Shown: piece by piece, positions 16,729 through 51,510 of the stretch
Layout: every line of letters begins with the position of its first letter
Position numbering within the stretch: position 1 is the stretch's first letter
DNA from: Flavobacterium sp. CF136
Lineage (GTDB): Bacteria; Bacteroidota; Bacteroidia; Flavobacteriales; Flavobacteriaceae
Assembly: GCF_000282055.1 (NCBI RefSeq)
Contig: NZ_AKJZ01000107.1
Coordinates: forward strand, 1 to 64,000
DNA length: 64,000 nucleotides
Direction of reading: 5' to 3'
The notes under the pieces: model-generated
What the model saw: the letters and a program-made list of their open reading frames with translations, nothing else
The model's database searches: none
Told to the model about the DNA's origin: nothing
Program-made: the position numbers and the translations under genes

Positions 16729-18402
16729 ATGGAATTAAACAAGTACAGCAAAACAATCACGCAAGACGAAACTCAACCAGCTTCTCAGGCCATGTTCTAC
16801 GGAATTGGTTTGACAGAAGAGGATCTTAAAAAAGCGCAGGTAGGAATTGTGAGTATGGGTTACGACGGAAATCCTTGTAACATGCACTTAAACGACCTGG
16901 CTAAAGATATTAAGACTGGCGTCTGGAAAGCAGATTTAGTTGGGTTGATTTTTAATACTATTGGTGTAAGTGATGGTATTTCTAACGGAAATGATGGAAT
17001 GCGTTTTTCTTTGGTTTCACGTGATGTAATTGCAGATTCCATCGAGACTGTTATGGGTGCACAATGGTACGATGGTATGATTGCTGTTCCGGGTTGTGAT
17101 AAAAATATGCCGGGAGCTTTAATGGCTATGGGCAGAGTAAATCGTCCTTCTATTATGGTTTACGGAGGATCTATTCATCCAGGAAAATGGAAAGGGGAAG
17201 ATTTGAATATTGTTTCTGCTTTTGAAGCATTGGGAAAAAAAATCAGCAACAAAATTACACCTGAAGATTTCAAAGGGGTGATTCAAAATGCTTGTCCAGG
17301 TGCTGGTGCCTGTGGTGGAATGTACACTGCAAATACAATGTCATCAGCAATTGAAGCATTAGGAATGAGTTTGCCTTACAGTTCTTCTAACCCTGCTTTG
17401 AGTCCGGAAAAGAAACAAGAATGTGTTGATGCAGGTAAAGCTATCAGAATATTATTGGAAAAAGATATTAAACCCAGAGACATTATGACTCGTAAAGCAT
17501 TTGAAAATGCAATTACGATGGTAGCTGTTTTAGGAGGTTCTACCAATGCAGTAATGCACTTAATTGCAATGGCGCACTCGGTAGGTATTGAATTGACATT
17601 AAAAGATTTCCAGGATATCAGTGATAAAACGCCATTATTAGCCGACTTGAAACCAAGTGGTAAATACTTAATGGAAGATTTACATAATGTAGGTGGTGTT
17701 CCGGGAGTAATGAAATATTTATTAAAAGAAGGTTTTTTACACGGTGACTGTTTAACTGTAACAGGAAAAACAATAGCGGAGAATTTAGCTTCAGTGCCCG
17801 ATTTACATGATGGTCAGCAAGTAGTTTTCGAAATTCAAAAAGCTTTAAAAGCTACCGGAAATATTCAGATTTTATACGGAAACATAGCAACAGAAGGTTG
17901 TGTGGCTAAAATTAGCGGTAAAGAAGGAGAGTTTTTTGAAGGTACAGCTGTAGTTTTCGAAGGTGAAAAAGATGTAATCAGAGGAATACAAGCAGGTGAA
18001 GTGAAGCCTGGAAACGTAGTGATTATTCGTTACTGTGGTCCAAAAGGCGGTCCCGGCATGTCTGAAATGTTAAAACCAACATCTGCCATTATGGGAGCCG
18101 GTCTAGGAAGTACTGTTGCTTTGATTACTGACGGGCGTTTCTCTGGAGGATCTCACGGTTTTGTAGTGGGTCACGTTACCCCGGAAGCATATGAAGGTGG
18201 TGGAATTGCATTGATAGAAAACGGCGATGTTATTACAATTGATGCTGTAAATAACACCATTAATATGAAGATTTCTGATGAAGAATTGGCAAAACGTAAA
18301 GCCAATTGGAAAAGACCGGAATCACCAATCAAACAAGGAGTTTTACTTAAATATATGCGTTCGGTCTCCAGTGCCTCTGAGGGATGTGTTACTGACAAAT
18401 AA
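16729..18402 (+). CDS. ilvD: Dihydroxy-acid dehydratase
   Basis: A 557-residue Fe-S enzyme that dehydrates 2,3-dihydroxy-acids to the 2-oxo acids in valine and isoleucine synthesis. Cluster ligands are C50 (GYDGNPC), C123 ([10 protein letters not shown]) and C195 ([18 protein letters not shown]); the late catalytic region [20 protein letters not shown] and GHVTPEA is intact. It is the first gene after the attenuator and is followed 64 bases later by ilvB. Length and motifs are normal for the IlvD/Edd family; the ilv neighbours exclude Edd. Confidence 0.97.
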
Positions 18403-18466
18403 TTTAAAAAAATAGAAATCTCTAAATTCAAAAATAAATATTTAGAGGTTTTAAAAAAGATATAAA

Positions 18467-20164
18467 ATGGAAACAATTAAAATATCTGGCGCAGAAGCCG
18501 TTATCAGGTGTTTATTGGCAGAAGGAGTAGATTTGGTTTATGGATATCCGGGAGGAGCCATAATGCCGGTTTATGACGAATTATATAAATTTCAGGATCA
18601 ATTGCACCACGTTTTGGTGCGTCACGAACAAGGTGCAGCCCATGCAGCACAAGGATTTGCCAGAGCGACTGGTAAAGTAGGTGTAGCTATTGCAACTTCG
18701 GGACCGGGAGCTACCAATTTAGTAACTGGTATTGCTGATGCTCAAATCGATTCTACACCGTTAGTGTGTATTACAGGTCAGGTTGGAAAACACTTATTAG
18801 GGTCTGATGCTTTTCAGGAAACTGATATTATTGGAATTTCAACTCCGGTAACCAAATGGAACTACCAAATTACAGAAGCTCACGAAATTCCGGAAATTAT
18901 TGCAAAAGCATTTTATATTGCAAGATCAGGTCGTCCGGGCCCGGTCTTAATTGATATTACTAAAAATGCCCAGTTTGACGAGTTTGATTTTAGCTATGAA
19001 AAATGTACAGGAATTAGAAGTTATCACCCAAAACCGGTGTTGAATCTTCAAAAGGTACAAGAAGCTGCAGATGTCATTAATAATGCAAAAAAACCATTTA
19101 TTGTTTTTGGTCAGGGGATTATATTAAGTGAAGCAGAAGAACAATTAAAAAGATTAGTTGAAAAATCAGGGATTCCTGCTGCCTGGACAATATTAGGTCT
19201 TTCTGCTTTACCAACAGATCATCCTTTAAATGTAGGTATGGTAGGGATGCATGGTAATTATGGACCTAATGTTCTGACTAATGAATGTGATGTTTTAATT
19301 GCACTTGGAATGCGTTTTGATGATCGTGTTACTGGAAATTTAGCTACTTATGCTAAACAAGCGAAAGTAATTCACTTCGAAATTGATCCGGCTGAAGTTG
19401 ATAAAAACGTAAAAACTGAAGTTGCTGTTTTGGGAGATGTTAAAGAAGCATTGACTGCTTTAATTCCATTGATTGACAAAAAATCACATGATTCCTGGCA
19501 TAATGAATTCAAGGAAAAATATAAAATTGAATTAGATAAGGTTATTAATGAAGAGTTGGCTCCAACAAATGGCAAAGGAATTTCCATGGGAGAAACCATC
19601 GAAATGATTAATAAACACTCGAAAGGGGATGCAATAATGGTTTCGGATGTAGGCCAGCATCAAATGTTTGCTTGTCGTTATGTTAAATTCAATTCAACTA
19701 AAAGTAACGTTACTTCAGGAGGATTAGGAACAATGGGGTTTGCTTTACCTGCTGCTATTGGTGCCAAAATGGGAAGACCGGATCGTGAAGTTGTAGCTAT
19801 TATTGGTGACGGAGGTTTTCAAATGAATATACAGGAGTTAGGTACAATTCACCAGACAAAAGTTCCTGTAAAAATTGTTGTGTTAAACAATGAATTTTTG
19901 GGAATGGTACGTCAATGGCAGGAATTATTTTTCGACTATAGATATGCTTCTACAGTTATGATAAATCCAAATTTTTGCGCTATTGCTGAAGGATATTATA
20001 TCAAATCAAAGAAAGTAACTAAAAGAGAAGATCTTGATGCTGCTGTTGCAGAAATGATGGCTTCTAAAGATTCATACTTTTTAGAGGTTATGGTAGAGAA
20101 AGAGAATAATGTATTTCCAATGATTCCAACAGGAGCCTCAGTTTCTGATATCAGATTAAGTTAA
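18467..20164 (+). CDS. ilvB: Acetolactate synthase large (catalytic) subunit
   Basis: A 565-residue ThDP-dependent enzyme that joins two pyruvates, or pyruvate and 2-oxobutyrate, into acetohydroxy acids. The N-terminal VYGYPGGAIMPVYDEL and VRHEQGAAHAAQGFARATGK carry the catalytic glutamate E54; the ThDP/Mg motif GDGGFQMNIQELGT lies near residue 447; a central FAD-type domain lies between. The regulatory subunit gene ilvN starts 6 bases after its stop, as expected for a two-subunit enzyme. Confidence 0.96.
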   Translation: METIKISGAEAVIRCLLAEGVDLVYGYPGGAIMPVYDELYKFQDQLHHVLVRHEQGAAHAAQGFARATGKVGVAIATSGPGATNLVTGIADAQIDSTPLVCITGQVGKHLLGSDAFQETDIIGISTPVTKWNYQITEAHEIPEIIAKAFYIARSGRPGPVLIDITKNAQFDEFDFSYEKCTGIRSYHPKPVLNLQKVQEAADVINNAKKPFIVFGQGIILSEAEEQLKRLVEKSGIPAAWTILGLSALPTDHPLNVGMVGMHGNYGPNVLTNECDVLIALGMRFDDRVTGNLATYAKQAKVIHFEIDPAEVDKNVKTEVAVLGDVKEALTALIPLIDKKSHDSWHNEFKEKYKIELDKVINEELAPTNGKGISMGETIEMINKHSKGDAIMVSDVGQHQMFACRYVKFNSTKSNVTSGGLGTMGFALPAAIGAKMGRPDREVVAIIGDGGFQMNIQELGTIHQTKVPVKIVVLNNEFLGMVRQWQELFFDYRYASTVMINPNFCAIAEGYYIKSKKVTKREDLDAAVAEMMASKDSYFLEVMVEKENNVFPMIPTGASVSDIRLS

Positions 20165-20170
20165 AAAAGC

Positions 20171-20695
20171 ATGGAAGATAAAACATTTACCATTTCGGTA
20201 TATTCGGAAAATAATGTGGGCTTGTTAAATAGAATATCTGGAATATTCTTAAAGCGTCACATCAATATATTAAGTTTAAACGTTTCAGAATCAGAAATAG
20301 AGAATGTTTCAAGATTCATCATAGTAGTTGAAACTACTGAGAAATGGGTTAAAAATATAGTAGGGCAAATAGAGAAACAAATTGAAGTTATAAAAGCGTT
20401 TTATCATACAGATGAAGAGACAATTTATCTGGAAAATGCGTTATTTAAAATAGCATCAAGTTTATTATTTGATGAGAAACAAATTCAGAATATAATCAAA
20501 GACAGCCAATCTACGATTGTGACTGTTTCCCGCGATTTCTTTGTGATTTCAAAATCAGGAAGACGTTCTGAAATCGAAGAATTATATGCAAAATTCAAAC
20601 CGTACGGCATTATGCAATTTGTACGTTCAGGAAGAATTTCAGTTTCTAAAGAAAAAATGGAAATTTCATCATTATTATTAAACGAATTAAAATAG
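20171..20695 (+). CDS. ilvN: Acetolactate synthase small (regulatory) subunit
   Basis: A 174-residue protein with an N-terminal ACT domain (FTISVYSENNVGLLNRISGI, then FLKRHINILSLNVSESE) and the C-terminal IlvN/IlvH domain. The ACT domain normally binds valine and gives feedback inhibition of the large subunit. It starts 6 bases after ilvB and ends 39 bases before ilvC. Length is typical of the ilvH/ilvN group; the choice of gene symbol within that group is by convention. Confidence 0.93.
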   Translation: MEDKTFTISVYSENNVGLLNRISGIFLKRHINILSLNVSESEIENVSRFIIVVETTEKWVKNIVGQIEKQIEVIKAFYHTDEETIYLENALFKIASSLLFDEKQIQNIIKDSQSTIVTVSRDFFVISKSGRRSEIEELYAKFKPYGIMQFVRSGRISVSKEKMEISSLLLNELK

Positions 20696-20734
20696 TTACA
20701 AAATTAAATATCATACTTATTAAATATTAAAAAA

Positions 20735-22204
20735 ATGGCCAATTATTTCAACACATTACCACTTAGATTACAATTAGAACAATTAGGAGTTTGCGAATTT
20801 ATGGATCAATCAGAGTTTGCAAATGGAATAGCAGCATTAGCAGGAAAAAAGGTTGTTATCGTAGGTTGCGGAGCTCAGGGTTTAAACCAGGGTTTGAACA
20901 TGAGAGATTCAGGTTTGGATATTTCTTATGCTTTGCGTGCAGATGCAATTGCTGAAAAAAGAGCCTCTTATAAAAACGCTACCGAAAATGGTTTTAAAGT
21001 TGGTACATATGAAGAATTAATTCCAACAGCTGATTTAGTTTGTAACCTTACTCCGGATAAACAACATACAGCTGTTGTAACTGCGATTATGCCATTAATG
21101 AAAAATGGTTCAACTTTAGCATATTCTCATGGATTTAATATTGTTGAAGAAGGAATGCAAATCCGTAAAGACATTACGGTAATCATGTGTGCTCCTAAAT
21201 GTCCTGGTTCAGAGGTACGTGAAGAATATAAAAGAGGTTTTGGTGTACCGACACTTATTGCAGTTCACCCGGAAAATGATCCAAACGGTTTAGGTTTAGA
21301 TCAGGCAAAAGCATACGCTGTAGCAACTGGCGGGCATAGAGCAGGAGTTTTAAAATCATCATTTGTTGCTGAAGTAAAATCAGATTTAATGGGTGAGCAA
21401 ACTATCCTTTGTGGATTATTGCAAACAGGTTCTATTTTATGTTTTGATAAAATGGTTGAGAAAGGAATCGATGCTGCATATGCTTCAAAATTAATTCAAT
21501 ACGGATGGGAAACTATCACAGAAGCTTTGAAACATGGTGGTATCACAAATATGATGGACCGTCTTTCAAATCCTGCAAAAATTGAAGCTTACGAAATTGC
21601 AGAAGAATTAAAAGATATCATGCGTCCGTTATTCCAAAAGCACCAGGATGATATTATTTCCGGAGAATTCTCCAGAACTATGATGATTGACTGGGCAAAT
21701 GACGATAAGAATTTATTGACTTGGAGAGCAGCTACAGGAGAAACTAATTTCGAAAAAACAGCTCCACAAGAAGCTCCAATTTCAGAACAGGAATATTTTG
21801 ACAATGGAGTATTAATGATAGCAATGGTAAAAGCTGGTGTTGAATTAGCTTTTGAAACTATGACCGAAGCAGGAATTATTGAAGAATCTGCTTATTATGA
21901 GTCATTACACGAATTGCCATTGATTGCAAACACTATCGCAAGAAAGAAATTATTTGAAATGAACCGTGTTATTTCGGATACAGCAGAATATGGCTGTTAT
22001 TTATTTGATCATGCTTGTAAGCCTTTATTGACTGAATTCATGAAAAAAGTAGATACAAACATAATAGGAAAACCATTCTCAACTTCAAACGGAGTAGATA
22101 ATGCAGTTTTAATTGCTGTAAACAAAGAAATTCGTCAGCATCCTATCGAAGAAGTTGGTGCATGGTTGAGAGAATCTATGACAGCAATGAAAAAAATTGG
22201 ATAA
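20735..22204 (+). CDS. ilvC: Ketol-acid reductoisomerase, class II (long form)
   Basis: A 489-residue NADPH enzyme that isomerises and reduces acetohydroxy acids. The dinucleotide motif is [20 protein letters not shown] near residues 35-53, followed by [29 protein letters not shown] and the duplicated helical knotted domain (about residues 210-485) mark the class II type of about 490 residues, as in E. coli, rather than the 330-residue class I type. It is the last ilv gene here; no ilvA or leuCD follows before the non-coding segment. Confidence 0.96.
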
Positions 22205-22264
22205 TATAAATTAGAATTACACACCACGTTGTGTGTGGGGATTTTGCACTGTATCTTTGTTTTA

Positions 22265-22542
22265 TATAATATTTTGAATTAGTAAGCACTTATTAAGATA
22301 ATAACAGATATAGGCATGTTACATTCACTTAACTTCCATTTTTTGGTTAAGTTAAGTGAAGTAATCCCTAATTATTAAGGTATATTTAGTTGTAAATATA
22401 CTCGTAGAGATTTCTGTTATGATTAATAATGTTGCTGCTATTTTCAAAATAAATGAATTAAGCTGATAATGTTAAGAAATTAATTGTTATTGAAATTGTT
22501 AAATTTAAAAGGCATGGTATTTATAATATCATGCCTTTTTTT
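22265..22542 (+). ncRNA. Candidate structured non-coding RNA or acs 5' leader
   Basis: The 494-base gap between ilvC and acs holds ordered structure. A -7-like box TATCTTTG lies at 22252-22259 with TTG at 22229-22231 (20-base spacer), so a transcript could start near 22265. Then ATAACAGA (22301-22308) pairs with TCTGTTAT (22413-22420) and encloses two hairpins: TTAC-a-TTCACTTAACTT (22319-22335) with AAGTTAAGTGAAGTAA (22349-22364), and GTATATTTA (22380-22388) with TAAATATAC (22393-22401). This makes a three-way junction, followed by a perfect terminator at 22508-22542. GGCATG occurs both before the first hairpin (22313-22318) and in the terminator, so alternative pairing is possible. It could be a stand-alone sRNA or a regulatory leader of acs. 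I recognise no known family. Confidence 0.4.
22508..22542 (+). terminator. Rho-independent terminator between ilvC and acs
   Basis: AAAGGCATG (22508-22516) pairs perfectly with CATGCCTTT (22530-22538), with partial pairing inside, and is followed by T to 22542. It ends the ilv transcript or the candidate RNA before it, 157 bases before acs. Confidence 0.88.
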
Positions 22543-22698
22543 ATTGCATATATTTTTGATTAAATCTAAAAATTATATTAAATACACTAAAAGACGATGT
22601 TTTTTTTATAATATGTTTTTTTTAGATGAAATTTATGAATTAAATAATTTTAAGAATACATTGTTATTTAATACATTTATAAAAAAATTACAACAACC

Positions 22699-24609
22699 AT
22701 GAGTTATTATAAAATAGAAAATTTAGAACAATATTTTAAACATTACAATAAGTCAATAAGAGAGCCAAGAAAATTTTGGGGTAAAATAGCCGAAGAAAAT
22801 TTTACCTGGTACCAGCAATGGGAAAAAGTTGTTGATTTTAATATGGCTGATGCCGAAGTAAAGTGGTTTACTGAAGCAAAAGTTAACATTACAAAAAATT
22901 GTATAGACAGGCATTTAAGTAAAAGAGGAGAAAAGACGGCAATTATTTTCGAACCAAATAATCCGGGTGAGAACTCATTACATATTACTTATAATGAGTT
23001 ATACGAAAGAGTTTCTAAAATGGCAAACGTTTTGCGTGAGCAAGGCGTTGTTAAAGGAGACAGAGTTTGTATTTATTTACCAATGATTCCGGAACTTGCT
23101 GTAGCAGTTTTGGCTTGTGCCAGAATTGGCGCTATACATTCGGTTATTTTTGCTGGGTTTTCAGCTTCTGCAGTTTCTGCAAGAATTAATGATTGTGAAT
23201 GTAAAATGGTAATTACTTCAGATGGAGGTTACAGAGGGAATAAAACAATTGATCTTAAAGGAATCGTTGATGAAGCTTTAGATACCTGCCCGTCAGTTAC
23301 AAAAGTTTTAGTTGTAAAAAGAACCCAGACAGAAATAAAAATGCAGGAAGGTCGTGACATTTGGTTGCAGCCTTTATTAGATGCCGCTCTTGATTACAAT
23401 GTGGCAGAAATCATGGATGCTGAAGATCCTTTATTTATTTTATATACTTCAGGTTCAACAGGAAAACCAAAAGGAATGGTACATACCACAGCCGGATATA
23501 TGGTTTACACGGCTTATACTTTTAAAAATGTTTTCAGTCATGAAGAAAATGATATTTTCTGGTGTACAGCAGACATTGGGTGGATTACCGGACATTCATA
23601 CATTTTATACGGACCATTATTGAATGGAGGAACAACCGTAATTTTTGAAGGGGTGCCATCTTATCCTGATTTTAGCCGTTTTTGGGAAATTATCGAAAAA
23701 CATAAAATAACACAATTTTATACAGCACCAACTGCAATTCGTTCATTAGCAAAAGAAAGCTTAGATTATATTCAAAAATATCCTCTAAAATCACTTAAAG
23801 TTATTGGATCTGTTGGAGAACCAATTAATGAAGAAGCATGGCACTGGTTTAATGATCATGTTGGAGATAAAAGATGTCCGGTTGTAGATACTTGGTGGCA
23901 AACAGAAACTGGTGGAATTATGATTTCGCCAATTGCTTTTGTAACACCGACAAAACCAACATATGCAACTTTGCCATTACCTGGAATTCAGCCAGTTTTA
24001 ATGGATGAAAAACGTAATGAAATTGAAGGAAATCAAGTAGTCGGAAGTTTGTGTATTAAGTTTCCATGGCCCGGAATTGCCAGAACTATCTGGGGGAATC
24101 ATGAACGTTACAAAGAAACATACTTTTCAGCTTTTCCGGGAAAATATTTTACAGGAGACGGAGCCTTAAGAGATGAAGTTGGATATTATAGAATTACCGG
24201 TAGAGTAGATGATGTTGTAATTGTTTCCGGACATAATTTAGGAACTGCACCTATTGAAGATGCTATTAATGAACACCCTGCGGTTGCTGAATCAGCAATT
24301 GTTGGTTTCCCGCATGAAATAAAAGGAAATGCTTTGTATGGCTATGTAATCTTAAAGGAAACAGGTGAAGTTAGAAATAAAGAAAACTTAGCTAAAGAAA
24401 TCAATCAATATATAGCAGATCATATTGGCCCGATTGCTAAATTAGATAAAATTCAGTTTGTATCAGGATTGCCAAAAACGCGTTCAGGTAAAATTATGCG
24501 TAGAATCCTGCGCAAAATAGCTGAAGGAGATTTTTCTAATTTTGGAGATACTTCAACTTTATTAAATCCTGAAGTTGTCGAAGATATTATGAATGATAGA
24601 ATTTCATAG
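22699..24609 (+). CDS. acs: Acetyl-CoA synthetase
   Basis: A 636-residue AMP-forming ligase that turns acetate, ATP and CoA into acetyl-CoA. Motifs: YTSGSTGKPKGMVH (about residues 250-263), WWQTETGG, the YFTGDGA hinge region, and the catalytic lysine K598 in PKTRSGKIMRR, the site normally controlled by acetylation. The RYKETYF segment is also typical of Acs. Full length for the family. It has its own terminator at 24628-24655 and stands behind a structured leader region, so it is probably controlled apart from the ilv genes. Confidence 0.96.
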   Translation: MSYYKIENLEQYFKHYNKSIREPRKFWGKIAEENFTWYQQWEKVVDFNMADAEVKWFTEAKVNITKNCIDRHLSKRGEKTAIIFEPNNPGENSLHITYNELYERVSKMANVLREQGVVKGDRVCIYLPMIPELAVAVLACARIGAIHSVIFAGFSASAVSARINDCECKMVITSDGGYRGNKTIDLKGIVDEALDTCPSVTKVLVVKRTQTEIKMQEGRDIWLQPLLDAALDYNVAEIMDAEDPLFILYTSGSTGKPKGMVHTTAGYMVYTAYTFKNVFSHEENDIFWCTADIGWITGHSYILYGPLLNGGTTVIFEGVPSYPDFSRFWEIIEKHKITQFYTAPTAIRSLAKESLDYIQKYPLKSLKVIGSVGEPINEEAWHWFNDHVGDKRCPVVDTWWQTETGGIMISPIAFVTPTKPTYATLPLPGIQPVLMDEKRNEIEGNQVVGSLCIKFPWPGIARTIWGNHERYKETYFSAFPGKYFTGDGALRDEVGYYRITGRVDDVVIVSGHNLGTAPIEDAINEHPAVAESAIVGFPHEIKGNALYGYVILKETGEVRNKENLAKEINQYIADHIGPIAKLDKIQFVSGLPKTRSGKIMRRILRKIAEGDFSNFGDTSTLLNPEVVEDIMNDRIS

Positions 24610-36360: not shown

Positions 36361-36437
36361 AATATGATTTTTTTGACAGTGCAAATGTAGTTATGATTTA
36401 TGAATCGCAGATGAAGATTTAAGATTTTTTTATGAAG

Positions 36438-36575
36438 CTAATCCTGCTATCCGCTTCAATATTTTTCTCCAAATCCTTTTTTTCCAAGACTGCTCAGGAG
36501 CTTCCGTTGGTCGCTCTGTTCAGTCAGGAAAAAATAGGCTTTCTCAAAAAATGATTTCAGCTGTTATCAGGGCTA
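36438..36575 (+). repeat. Divergent copy of the 'GCTATCCGCT...CAGGGCTA' dispersed repeat
   Basis: This non-coding stretch begins AATCCTGCTATCCGCTTCAA and ends TTCAGCTGTTATCAGGGCTA, with a T-rich then A-rich middle (ATTTTTCTCC... and ...CTCAAAAAAT) and an inner CAGGAGCTTCCGTTGGTCGC. It resembles the elements at 42481-42564 and 51428-51510 in ends and layout but is less well kept. A 40-codon ATG frame across it is accidental. The rest of 36361-36714 holds only a candidate -7 box (36682-36689). Confidence 0.5.
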
Positions 36576-36681
36576 AATCTTTAGTAAAGTATAACTATTC
36601 AAATAGGTTTACAAAATAATTTCCAAAATGTAAAAAGAATGCAGTTGTGTTTTATTAATAAGAAAAGTCATTGAATTTTAT

Positions 36682-42480: not shown

Positions 42481-42564
42481 AGGAGCTGTTTCCTGTTATT
42501 CGCTATATCTTTTTGTTTTTAAAGGAAAAACAAAAAGGATGCCGCTACTACCAGGGCTATGACT
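42481..42564 (+). repeat. Dispersed repeat, 'GCTATATCTTTT...AAAAGGATGCCG' family
   Basis: AGGAGCTGTTTCCTG, TTCGCTATATCTTTTTG, then a hairpin centre (TTGTTTTTAAAGGAAAAACA), AAAAAGGATGCCGCTACTAC and CAGGGCT. The flanks match the element at 51428-51510 closely, while the hairpin centre differs in sequence but keeps its pairing. Non-coding. Dispersed small repeat of Flavobacterium type. Confidence 0.75.
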
Positions 42565-51427: not shown

Positions 51428-51510
51428 AGGAGCTATTTCCAGTTGTACACTATATCTTTTGTGGCAAACCCTGCCATAAAAGGATGCCGTTTCCATCTGG
51501 GCTGTGACTT
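51428..51510 (+). repeat. Dispersed repeat, 'GCTATATCTTTT...AAAAGGATGCCG' family, second copy
   Basis: CAGGAGCTATTTCCAGTTGT, ACTATATCTTTTGTGGCA, loop, TGCCATAAAAGGATGCCG, TTTCCATCTGGGCTGTGAC. It matches 42481-42564 in its ends (GGAGCT.TTTCC, CTATATCTTTT, AAAAGGATGCCG, GGGCT.TGACTT) but has a different, still complementary hairpin centre (TTTTGTGGCA with TGCCATAAAA). Lies between acr3 (minus) and the PIG-L gene (minus). Confidence 0.78.

Follow-up and report, generated by a model that had tools for sequence, protein, structure and literature searches.

A conserved structured RNA behind ilvC in Flavobacterium, most likely a 3′ untranslated region, with a putative base-pairing seed for SusC leaders

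What occupies the gap between ilvC and the acetyl-CoA synthetase gene acs in Flavobacterium sp. CF136? The gap lies in a 64,000-nt stretch of contig NZ_AKJZ01000107.1, which was analyzed as a whole (hereafter, the window) and in which an earlier note had recognized a candidate three-way-junction RNA, either a stand-alone small RNA (sRNA) or a conditional leader of acs. Comparison of this locus across the genus suggests an undescribed small RNA that would link amino-acid synthesis to nutrient uptake in many Flavobacterium. We give a slightly better than even chance to one specific form of this proposal, in which a trans-acting sRNA that base-pairs with SusC mRNAs is supplied by the structured 3′ untranslated region (UTR) of ilvDBNC, either as such or after processing.

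The structure of the RNA was assessed in an RNAalifold consensus of 76 close relatives and in a genus-wide structural alignment of 93 matches, which was fitted to a covariance model and is thus biased toward it; two antisense rows (L024 and L145) are counted among the 93 and were dropped for the counts of wobble pairs and for those on the ilvC tree. Double compensatory events were counted on this tree, which is independent of the RNA, for 73 loci, with slid pairings as controls. The hairpin P1 (Table 1) accumulated 26 double events, 16 in its lower and 10 in its upper part, compared with 1–5 in the controls, and the hairpin P3 accumulated 15, compared with 0–1; for P1a, the inner part of P1, only 4 events were found (0–2 in controls). 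P1 is only mildly above control in an ungapped-helix test (mean 7.7 vs 6.5). The arms of P3 are nearly invariant, their sequence being conserved beyond the needs of pairing. Wobble pairs are asymmetric (66 G.U vs 5 A.C in P3; 97 vs 27 in P1), which points to the plus strand as the RNA. The first hairpin behind ilvC, P0, has a mean stem score of 7.79 in 153 copies, as opposed to 5.56 in shuffles, with 39 copies above the 95th percentile of the shuffles, and its stems vary strongly in sequence (CACAC/GTGTG, TCCCGCAGAAT/ATTTTGCGGGA, CGCACG/CGTGCG). On the 93-match alignment, no shuffle reaches the observed level of covariation. A tree-shuffled null over all column pairs yielded no significant pair (best E about 2, exceeded by the null maximum). 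Covariation supports P1 and P3, and hairpin 2 and the Rho-independent terminator hold in close relatives. Hairpin 2 is absent from the consensus that RNAalifold itself proposes. With a stricter script, the terminator was recognized in 89/139 ilvC-linked copies and in none of 139 shuffles. Another candidate helix, GGGATT/AATCCC, was rejected as a closing helix (68.3% paired, more A.C than G.U combinations, 78 vs 58, and 2 double events compared with 1–5 in controls).

Every element listed in the earlier note is present in the window sequence where it had been placed, namely, the 8-bp closing stem (ATAACAGA at 22301–22308 with TCTGTTAT at 22413–22420), two hairpins at 22319–22364 and 22380–22401, the motif GGCATG at 22313–22318, a promoter-like box TATCTTTG at 22252–22259, and the terminator. 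The region is strongly folded: the energy of 22260–22545 is −76.9 kcal/mol (z −7.65, none of 200 shuffles as low), and 22285–22440 gives z −6.5 against shuffled controls. Both hairpins, the long one with a bulged A, and the closing stem can be read directly, the closing stem forms in the single-sequence fold, and the alignments bear out the long hairpin throughout the genus, hairpin 2 in close relatives, and a structured RNA that ends at the terminator. The closing stem fared differently. Although 86.0% of its lettered cells are paired in the 76 close relatives, one pair lacks a base in 68 of them and all eight pairs are present in only 3; moreover, the consensus fold assigns part of its 5′ arm to P1. 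Since the stem is incomplete in relatives and its arm is partly used by P1, relatives do not share the three-way junction in the form proposed. The proposed promoter is not supported: the box shares bases with the 5′ arm of P1, and relatives have TATCAATG, TATCTCTG, or TATCAAAT in its place. Nor is the proposed transcript start near 22265 supported; conserved structure (P0, P1) extends upstream to the ilvC stop codon. A switch between folds involving GGCATG and the terminator arm appears not to be conserved, since most relatives have GATGCA instead (judged by eye, uncounted).

The RNA is widespread within the genus and tightly linked to ilvC. A blastn search with 22265–22545 gave matches in 87/199 Flavobacterium genomes (E ≤ 0.001), many of them weak, and ilvC adjoins the match at 68 of the 69 loci with stronger matches (L002–L070), the exception being L070. 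A covariance model built from 62 sequences (R1) finds the RNA in 123/299 Flavobacterium genomes; in the large searches of genus and family, stricter filters were applied and weak matches were lost. In the family search, only 3/397 genomes matched, all from Flavobacterium, one of 237 genera, and R1 detected the RNA in none of the other 236 genera of this sample. The ilvC gene itself is present in 145/299 genomes, including 122 of the 123 that have the RNA; in the remaining one (G297), the contig ends within ilvC, and the RNA adjoins the fragment left of this gene. Among 153 unique copies, 144 are located directly behind ilvC and 9 elsewhere. This set was obtained from 157 copies called unique by script after removal of four (L187, L192, L196, and L211) judged by eye to be chance matches; a weaker model match, L086, stands outside it. 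The RNA usually occurs in one copy per genome and sometimes in two. In one genome with a decayed ilvC (L092, 2440–2760), the 5′ part of the RNA is kept and the P3 hairpin is lost, as judged by eye.

The origin of the transcript was addressed by looking upstream. Within 400 nt, the TAnnTTTG box, the only box type sought, reaches at most 8/143 copies per 10-nt bin, and the last ilvC codons of 148 sequences show no synonymous constraint. The lack of a visible conserved promoter and of such constraint, together with the start of P0 only 12 nt past the stop codon, favors the 3′ UTR of the ilv operon. The location of the RNA behind a coding gene in 144/153 copies, with a terminator at its end, is that expected of a 3′-UTR-derived sRNA. 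The RNA is therefore most likely the 3′ UTR of ilvDBNC, whose genes are probably co-transcribed, judging from intergenic gaps of 64, 6, and 39 nt. As for coding potential, the gap RNA contains only short frames of 20–37 amino acids and a TTG-started frame of 72 amino acids across the terminator.

The loop of P1a carries a putative seed. The loop UAUUUUGAAUUAGUAAGC is nearly invariant; apart from P3, no part of the RNA is as well conserved as its core TTTTGAATTAGTWA. In the 123 genomes with the RNA, the seed complement TWACTAATTCAAAA has 470 matches, as opposed to 123 with the pattern reversed; the RNA itself contributes at most about one match per genome, or about 123 in all. In the 176 genomes without an RNA match, the numbers are 130 and 118. 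Among the matches listed, which were partly covered, we classified 126 sites (134 rows, of which 8 are the RNA itself), picked regardless of context apart from exclusion of the RNA's own sites; 112 are from genomes with the RNA and 14 from genomes without it. Two classes stand out. Sense copies outside coding sequence and followed by a terminator constitute 26/112 sites in RNA genomes and 0/14 in RNA-less genomes, and 23 of the 26 follow a same-strand gene at a distance of no more than 130 nt, compared with 0.6% of random places. Antisense sites before a start codon account for 20/112 and 2/14 sites, respectively. By a strict rule (8–59 nt before a gene start), 19/112 sites of RNA genomes and 2/14 of RNA-less genomes qualify, compared with 94/6468 random places (1.45%); this rule was used instead of a looser one, whose background of 11.4% counted internal ATG codons. 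The remaining sites of RNA-less genomes are in coding sequence (9) or other places (3), and at least 7 of the 35 sites left without a class in RNA genomes are further 3′-UTR copies, by eye. Taking all antisense matches as targets was rejected as wrong for many of them, which are sense copies in 3′ UTRs.

Before-start sites precede, for instance, a SusC-like gene with a TonB plug domain (L259), a sodium:solute symporter (L238), and an M3 peptidase (L240), as assigned by Pfam. Of the 20 such sites, 10 are SusC-like and 4 belong to one symporter family, so they are not independent. In this symporter family, the motif complement stands 24–25 nt before the start (L238, L304, L321, and L324; Pfam on L238), and before the M3-family peptidase gene it stands at 21 nt (L240 and L243; Pfam on L240). 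Sense copies, TATTTTGAATTAGTAAGC or a near-match, were observed in the 3′ UTR before the terminator of nine M16-peptidase-type genes (L234, L254, L283, L320, L326, L244, L303, L319, and L327), the domain being identified by Pfam in L234 and L244 and the others assigned by similar ends. When at most two mismatches are allowed, five sites are present in the window genome and none for the control. They are the RNA itself, the 3′ UTR of a 127-amino-acid frame, two positions within coding sequence, and a SusC leader, the SusC gene being divergent from rnhB.

This rnhB-adjacent SusC gene allows genomes with and without the RNA to be compared directly. Its start was recognized at 31/50 loci of genomes with the RNA and at 14/20 loci of genomes without it. 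A perfect complement of the loop, 13–17 nt long, is present in 25 of the 31 leaders from RNA genomes (shuffles reach at most 10 nt), a seed complementary to the susC start region as in the FopS sRNAs discussed below. The leader reads TTTGCnnnATACTAATTCAAAAT...ATG in close relatives and ATAACTAATTCAAA in most of the distant genomes with the RNA, whereas all 14 leaders of RNA-less genomes read AACTAACTCAAA, none with a complement longer than 9 nt. In the window genome, the leader pairs with the loop at −21.3 kcal/mol. The site directly follows a TTTGC promoter-like box, so that the mRNA would begin with it. At the rnhB-adjacent SusC genes (L382, about 1500; L385–L454), a conserved and very short leader immediately behind a TTTGC box is common to genomes with the RNA and those without it (AACTAACTCAAA in the latter). 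At a neighboring position, GT[A/T] in the RNA matches [T/A]AC in 14/18 leaders (9 from a single clade).

Table 1. Coordinates of the RNA elements and neighboring genes in the window
Feature	Position	Strand	Basis or remark
P0 hairpin	22217–22238 (22217–22224 with 22231–22238)	+	12 nt past ilvC stop; 2 of 8 pairs G.U
P1 hairpin	22245–22316 (22249–22255 with 22307–22313; lower part 22245–22247 with 22314–22316)	+	RNAalifold, covariation
P1a, inner part of P1	22267–22271 with 22291–22295	+	RNAalifold
Putative seed TATTTTGAATTAGTAAGC around P1a loop, core TTTTGAATTAGT nearly invariant in genus	22270–22287	+	Alignment; antisense enrichment; target leaders
P3 hairpin (first hairpin of the earlier note)	22320–22363	+	Main stem, 98.9% of cells paired
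Hairpin 2	22380–22401	+	98.6% of cells paired, 76 close relatives
Rho-independent terminator	22508–22542	+	98.0% of cells paired, many compensatory changes, 76 relatives
ilvD	16729–18402	+	Open reading frame; Pfam ILVD_EDD
ilvB	18467–20164	+	Open reading frame; Pfam TPP_enzyme
ilvN	20171–20695	+	Open reading frame; Pfam ALS_ss_C/ACT
ilvC	20735–22204	+	Open reading frame; Pfam KARI
ilvDBNC branched-chain amino-acid operon	16729–22204	+	Likely source transcript of the RNA
acs (acetyl-CoA synthetase)	22699–24609	+	Pfam; downstream neighbor, not required

The nine copies away from ilvC have a setting of their own. Five of them (L078, L079, L081, L083, and L085) are located upstream of a 591-amino-acid frame, identified by Pfam in L078 as an AMP-binding enzyme, and four (L075, L076, L083, and L085, at about 2430–2640) are behind a divergent frame of 307 amino acids, of LysR type according to Pfam on L075. 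A TAATTTGC box lies near the start of the AMP-binding ligase, by eye, and hence the second copy is probably not a leader of this gene.

In the mechanism that we propose, the 3′ UTR of ilvDBNC would end at the terminator and act as, or be processed into, a trans-acting sRNA. P0, P1, and P3 would shape the RNA, with the loop in P1 presenting the seed. The seed would pair with the first 13–17 nt or so of mRNAs for SusC-like TonB-dependent transporters (5′-AUACUAAUUCAAAAU...AUG), immediately ahead of the start codon, and this pairing should reduce SusC translation. Other 3′ UTRs, those of M16-family peptidase genes among them, carry the seed before their terminators; the RNAs would thus form a family with one shared seed, in which the ilvC RNA would exceed the rest in size and conservation. 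To function, the seed would have to escape the pairing seen in full-length folds. We further consider, tentatively and with the chances somewhat against it, that one seed of 14–18 nt in unrelated 3′ UTRs (ilv, M16 peptidases, and others) serves as a common antisense signal on SusC/TonB leaders, by which amino-acid biosynthesis and peptide breakdown would jointly tune uptake across the outer membrane.

A number of observations weigh against this mechanism. In 23 of the 145 genomes with ilvC, no RNA match was found, and the nine copies away from ilvC have no convincing terminator (one has a weak candidate). Six of the 31 SusC leaders in RNA genomes have a complement of only 5–10 nt, and the start was not recognized at 19/50 RNA loci. 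Leaders of RNA-less genomes still pair with the loop better than shuffles do (−11.8 vs −7.7 kcal/mol; −16.0 in RNA genomes), and in G290, which also lacks the RNA, a SusC start is preceded by the exact site. Because RNA-less genomes keep the similar leader AACTAACTCAAA, and G290 the exact site, conservation of the leader may have a different cause. The loop–leader covariation at the neighboring position is only suggestive, being too weak for proof. As to the sites in general, 31/112 in RNA genomes lie within coding sequence and 35/112 fall in no class, and before-start sites, two among the 14 of RNA-less genomes, are about as frequent there as in RNA genomes. The excess of 3′-UTR sites over random places is inflated, as A/T-rich words favor non-coding DNA, and the contrast between genomes with and without the RNA may rest on few independent events, since the genomes are related. 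Finally, the seed is buried in the full-length fold of the window RNA (mean unpaired 0.13, compared with 0.51 for P0–P3 alone) and largely paired in 38 relatives (0.35 and 0.56, respectively). In the full-length fold it is buried by TTCAAAATA at 22443–22451, a stretch within the RNA that complements part of the seed and might serve in self-inhibition.

Several of these points suit a different function, in which the 3′ UTR acts in cis: its hairpins and loop would bind a protein or ribonuclease that stabilizes or processes the ilv and other mRNAs, and the complementarity to SusC would be incidental. Sense copies of the motif just before terminators of other 3′ UTRs, a seed often paired in full-length folds, the conservation of P3 beyond pairing needs, and a SusC leader conserved also in RNA-less genomes all agree with such an element. 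It does not account, however, for the roughly 12-fold excess over background of antisense sites ahead of gene starts or for the perfect matches in SusC leaders, and the second copies behind the divergent LysR-type gene are not 3′ UTRs; we regard it as rather unlikely. A stand-alone sRNA gene with a promoter just inside or after ilvC would have the same role in trans. The copies away from ilvC speak for it, because several are behind a divergent gene and a copy can thus have its own promoter; the lack of a widely shared TAnnTTTG box (the only type sought), the unconstrained ilvC codons, and the position of P0 in the window directly behind the stop codon make this origin improbable for the ilvC-linked RNA.

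The proposal of the earlier note that the RNA is a conditional leader or attenuator of acs draws on the fact that acs comes directly after the RNA in 116 of the 127 copies with enough sequence. In the other 11, the RNA and ilvC stay together without acs, being followed by a gene of the FAD-binding type on the same strand (6 copies) or by a gene on the opposite strand (5 copies); Pfam identified a FAD-binding domain in one (L053) and an exonuclease domain in another (L063). The RNA thus goes with ilvC rather than acs and does not have the 5′-UTR location expected of a metabolite riboswitch or an acs leader, and the motif of the supposed switch differs in relatives, so that we consider an acs leader very improbable. 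Even less credible is a DNA operator, in which the inverted repeats would be protein-binding palindromes. The near-invariance of the P3 arms would be expected of it, but one-sided changes preserve G.U pairs of the plus strand, and the P1 arms are about 50 nt apart with variable spacing.

With respect to known RNAs, the gap fits no Rfam family. Rfam 15, including Flavo-1 (RF01705), gave no family at gathering score in the gap, and 6S-Flavo (RF01685), the model that the earlier note had singled out for a scan, has no match there at E up to 10; the 6S-Flavo match of this genome is on another contig (84.1 bits, 0.9 under the 85-bit cut-off). Both families are, like the RNA described here, structured RNAs of flavobacteria. 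Three Flavo-1 RNAs above gathering score are present elsewhere in the window (36436–36578, 42485–42562, and 51432–51507, minus strand). Among the matches listed in open-licence literature, none describes an RNA located behind ilvC in this genus. For F. columnare, candidate sRNAs that match no Rfam family are reported (PMC5395568). The ilvC RNA could be identical with one of the Rfp RNAs of F. psychrophilum or distinct from all of them (PMC9723704). One of these, Rfp18, acts on mRNAs by predicted pairing, as is proposed here, but through its third stem-loop and with metalloprotease mRNAs, two of which were lowered by deletion of Rfp18 (PMC9723704).

The closest parallel, drawn from descriptions and not from sequence, is with the FopS sRNAs of Bacteroides thetaiotaomicron, which repress susC translation through seed pairing near the start codon (PMC11697453). 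They are likewise paralogous RNAs with a shared seed, one of them derived from a 3′ UTR (FopS-14) (PMC11697453). On the other hand, FopS RNAs are about 65–70 nt long, number 14 per genome, carry the seed in the 5′ region, and have canonical sigma-ABfr promoters (ibid.), whereas the ilvC RNA would be about 340 nt long if starting at the ilvC stop codon, has its putative seed in a hairpin loop, is tied to ilvC, and occurs in one or two copies per genome.

Post-transcriptional control of SusC has already been shown in gut Bacteroides. If the proposed mechanism holds, environmental Flavobacterium would follow the same logic with the 3′ UTR of an ilv operon, and nutrient import would be tied to the supply of amino acids. 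The genus would then have an sRNA regulon whose target sites are defined and open to testing, and several 3′ UTRs would be shown to have one seed in common.
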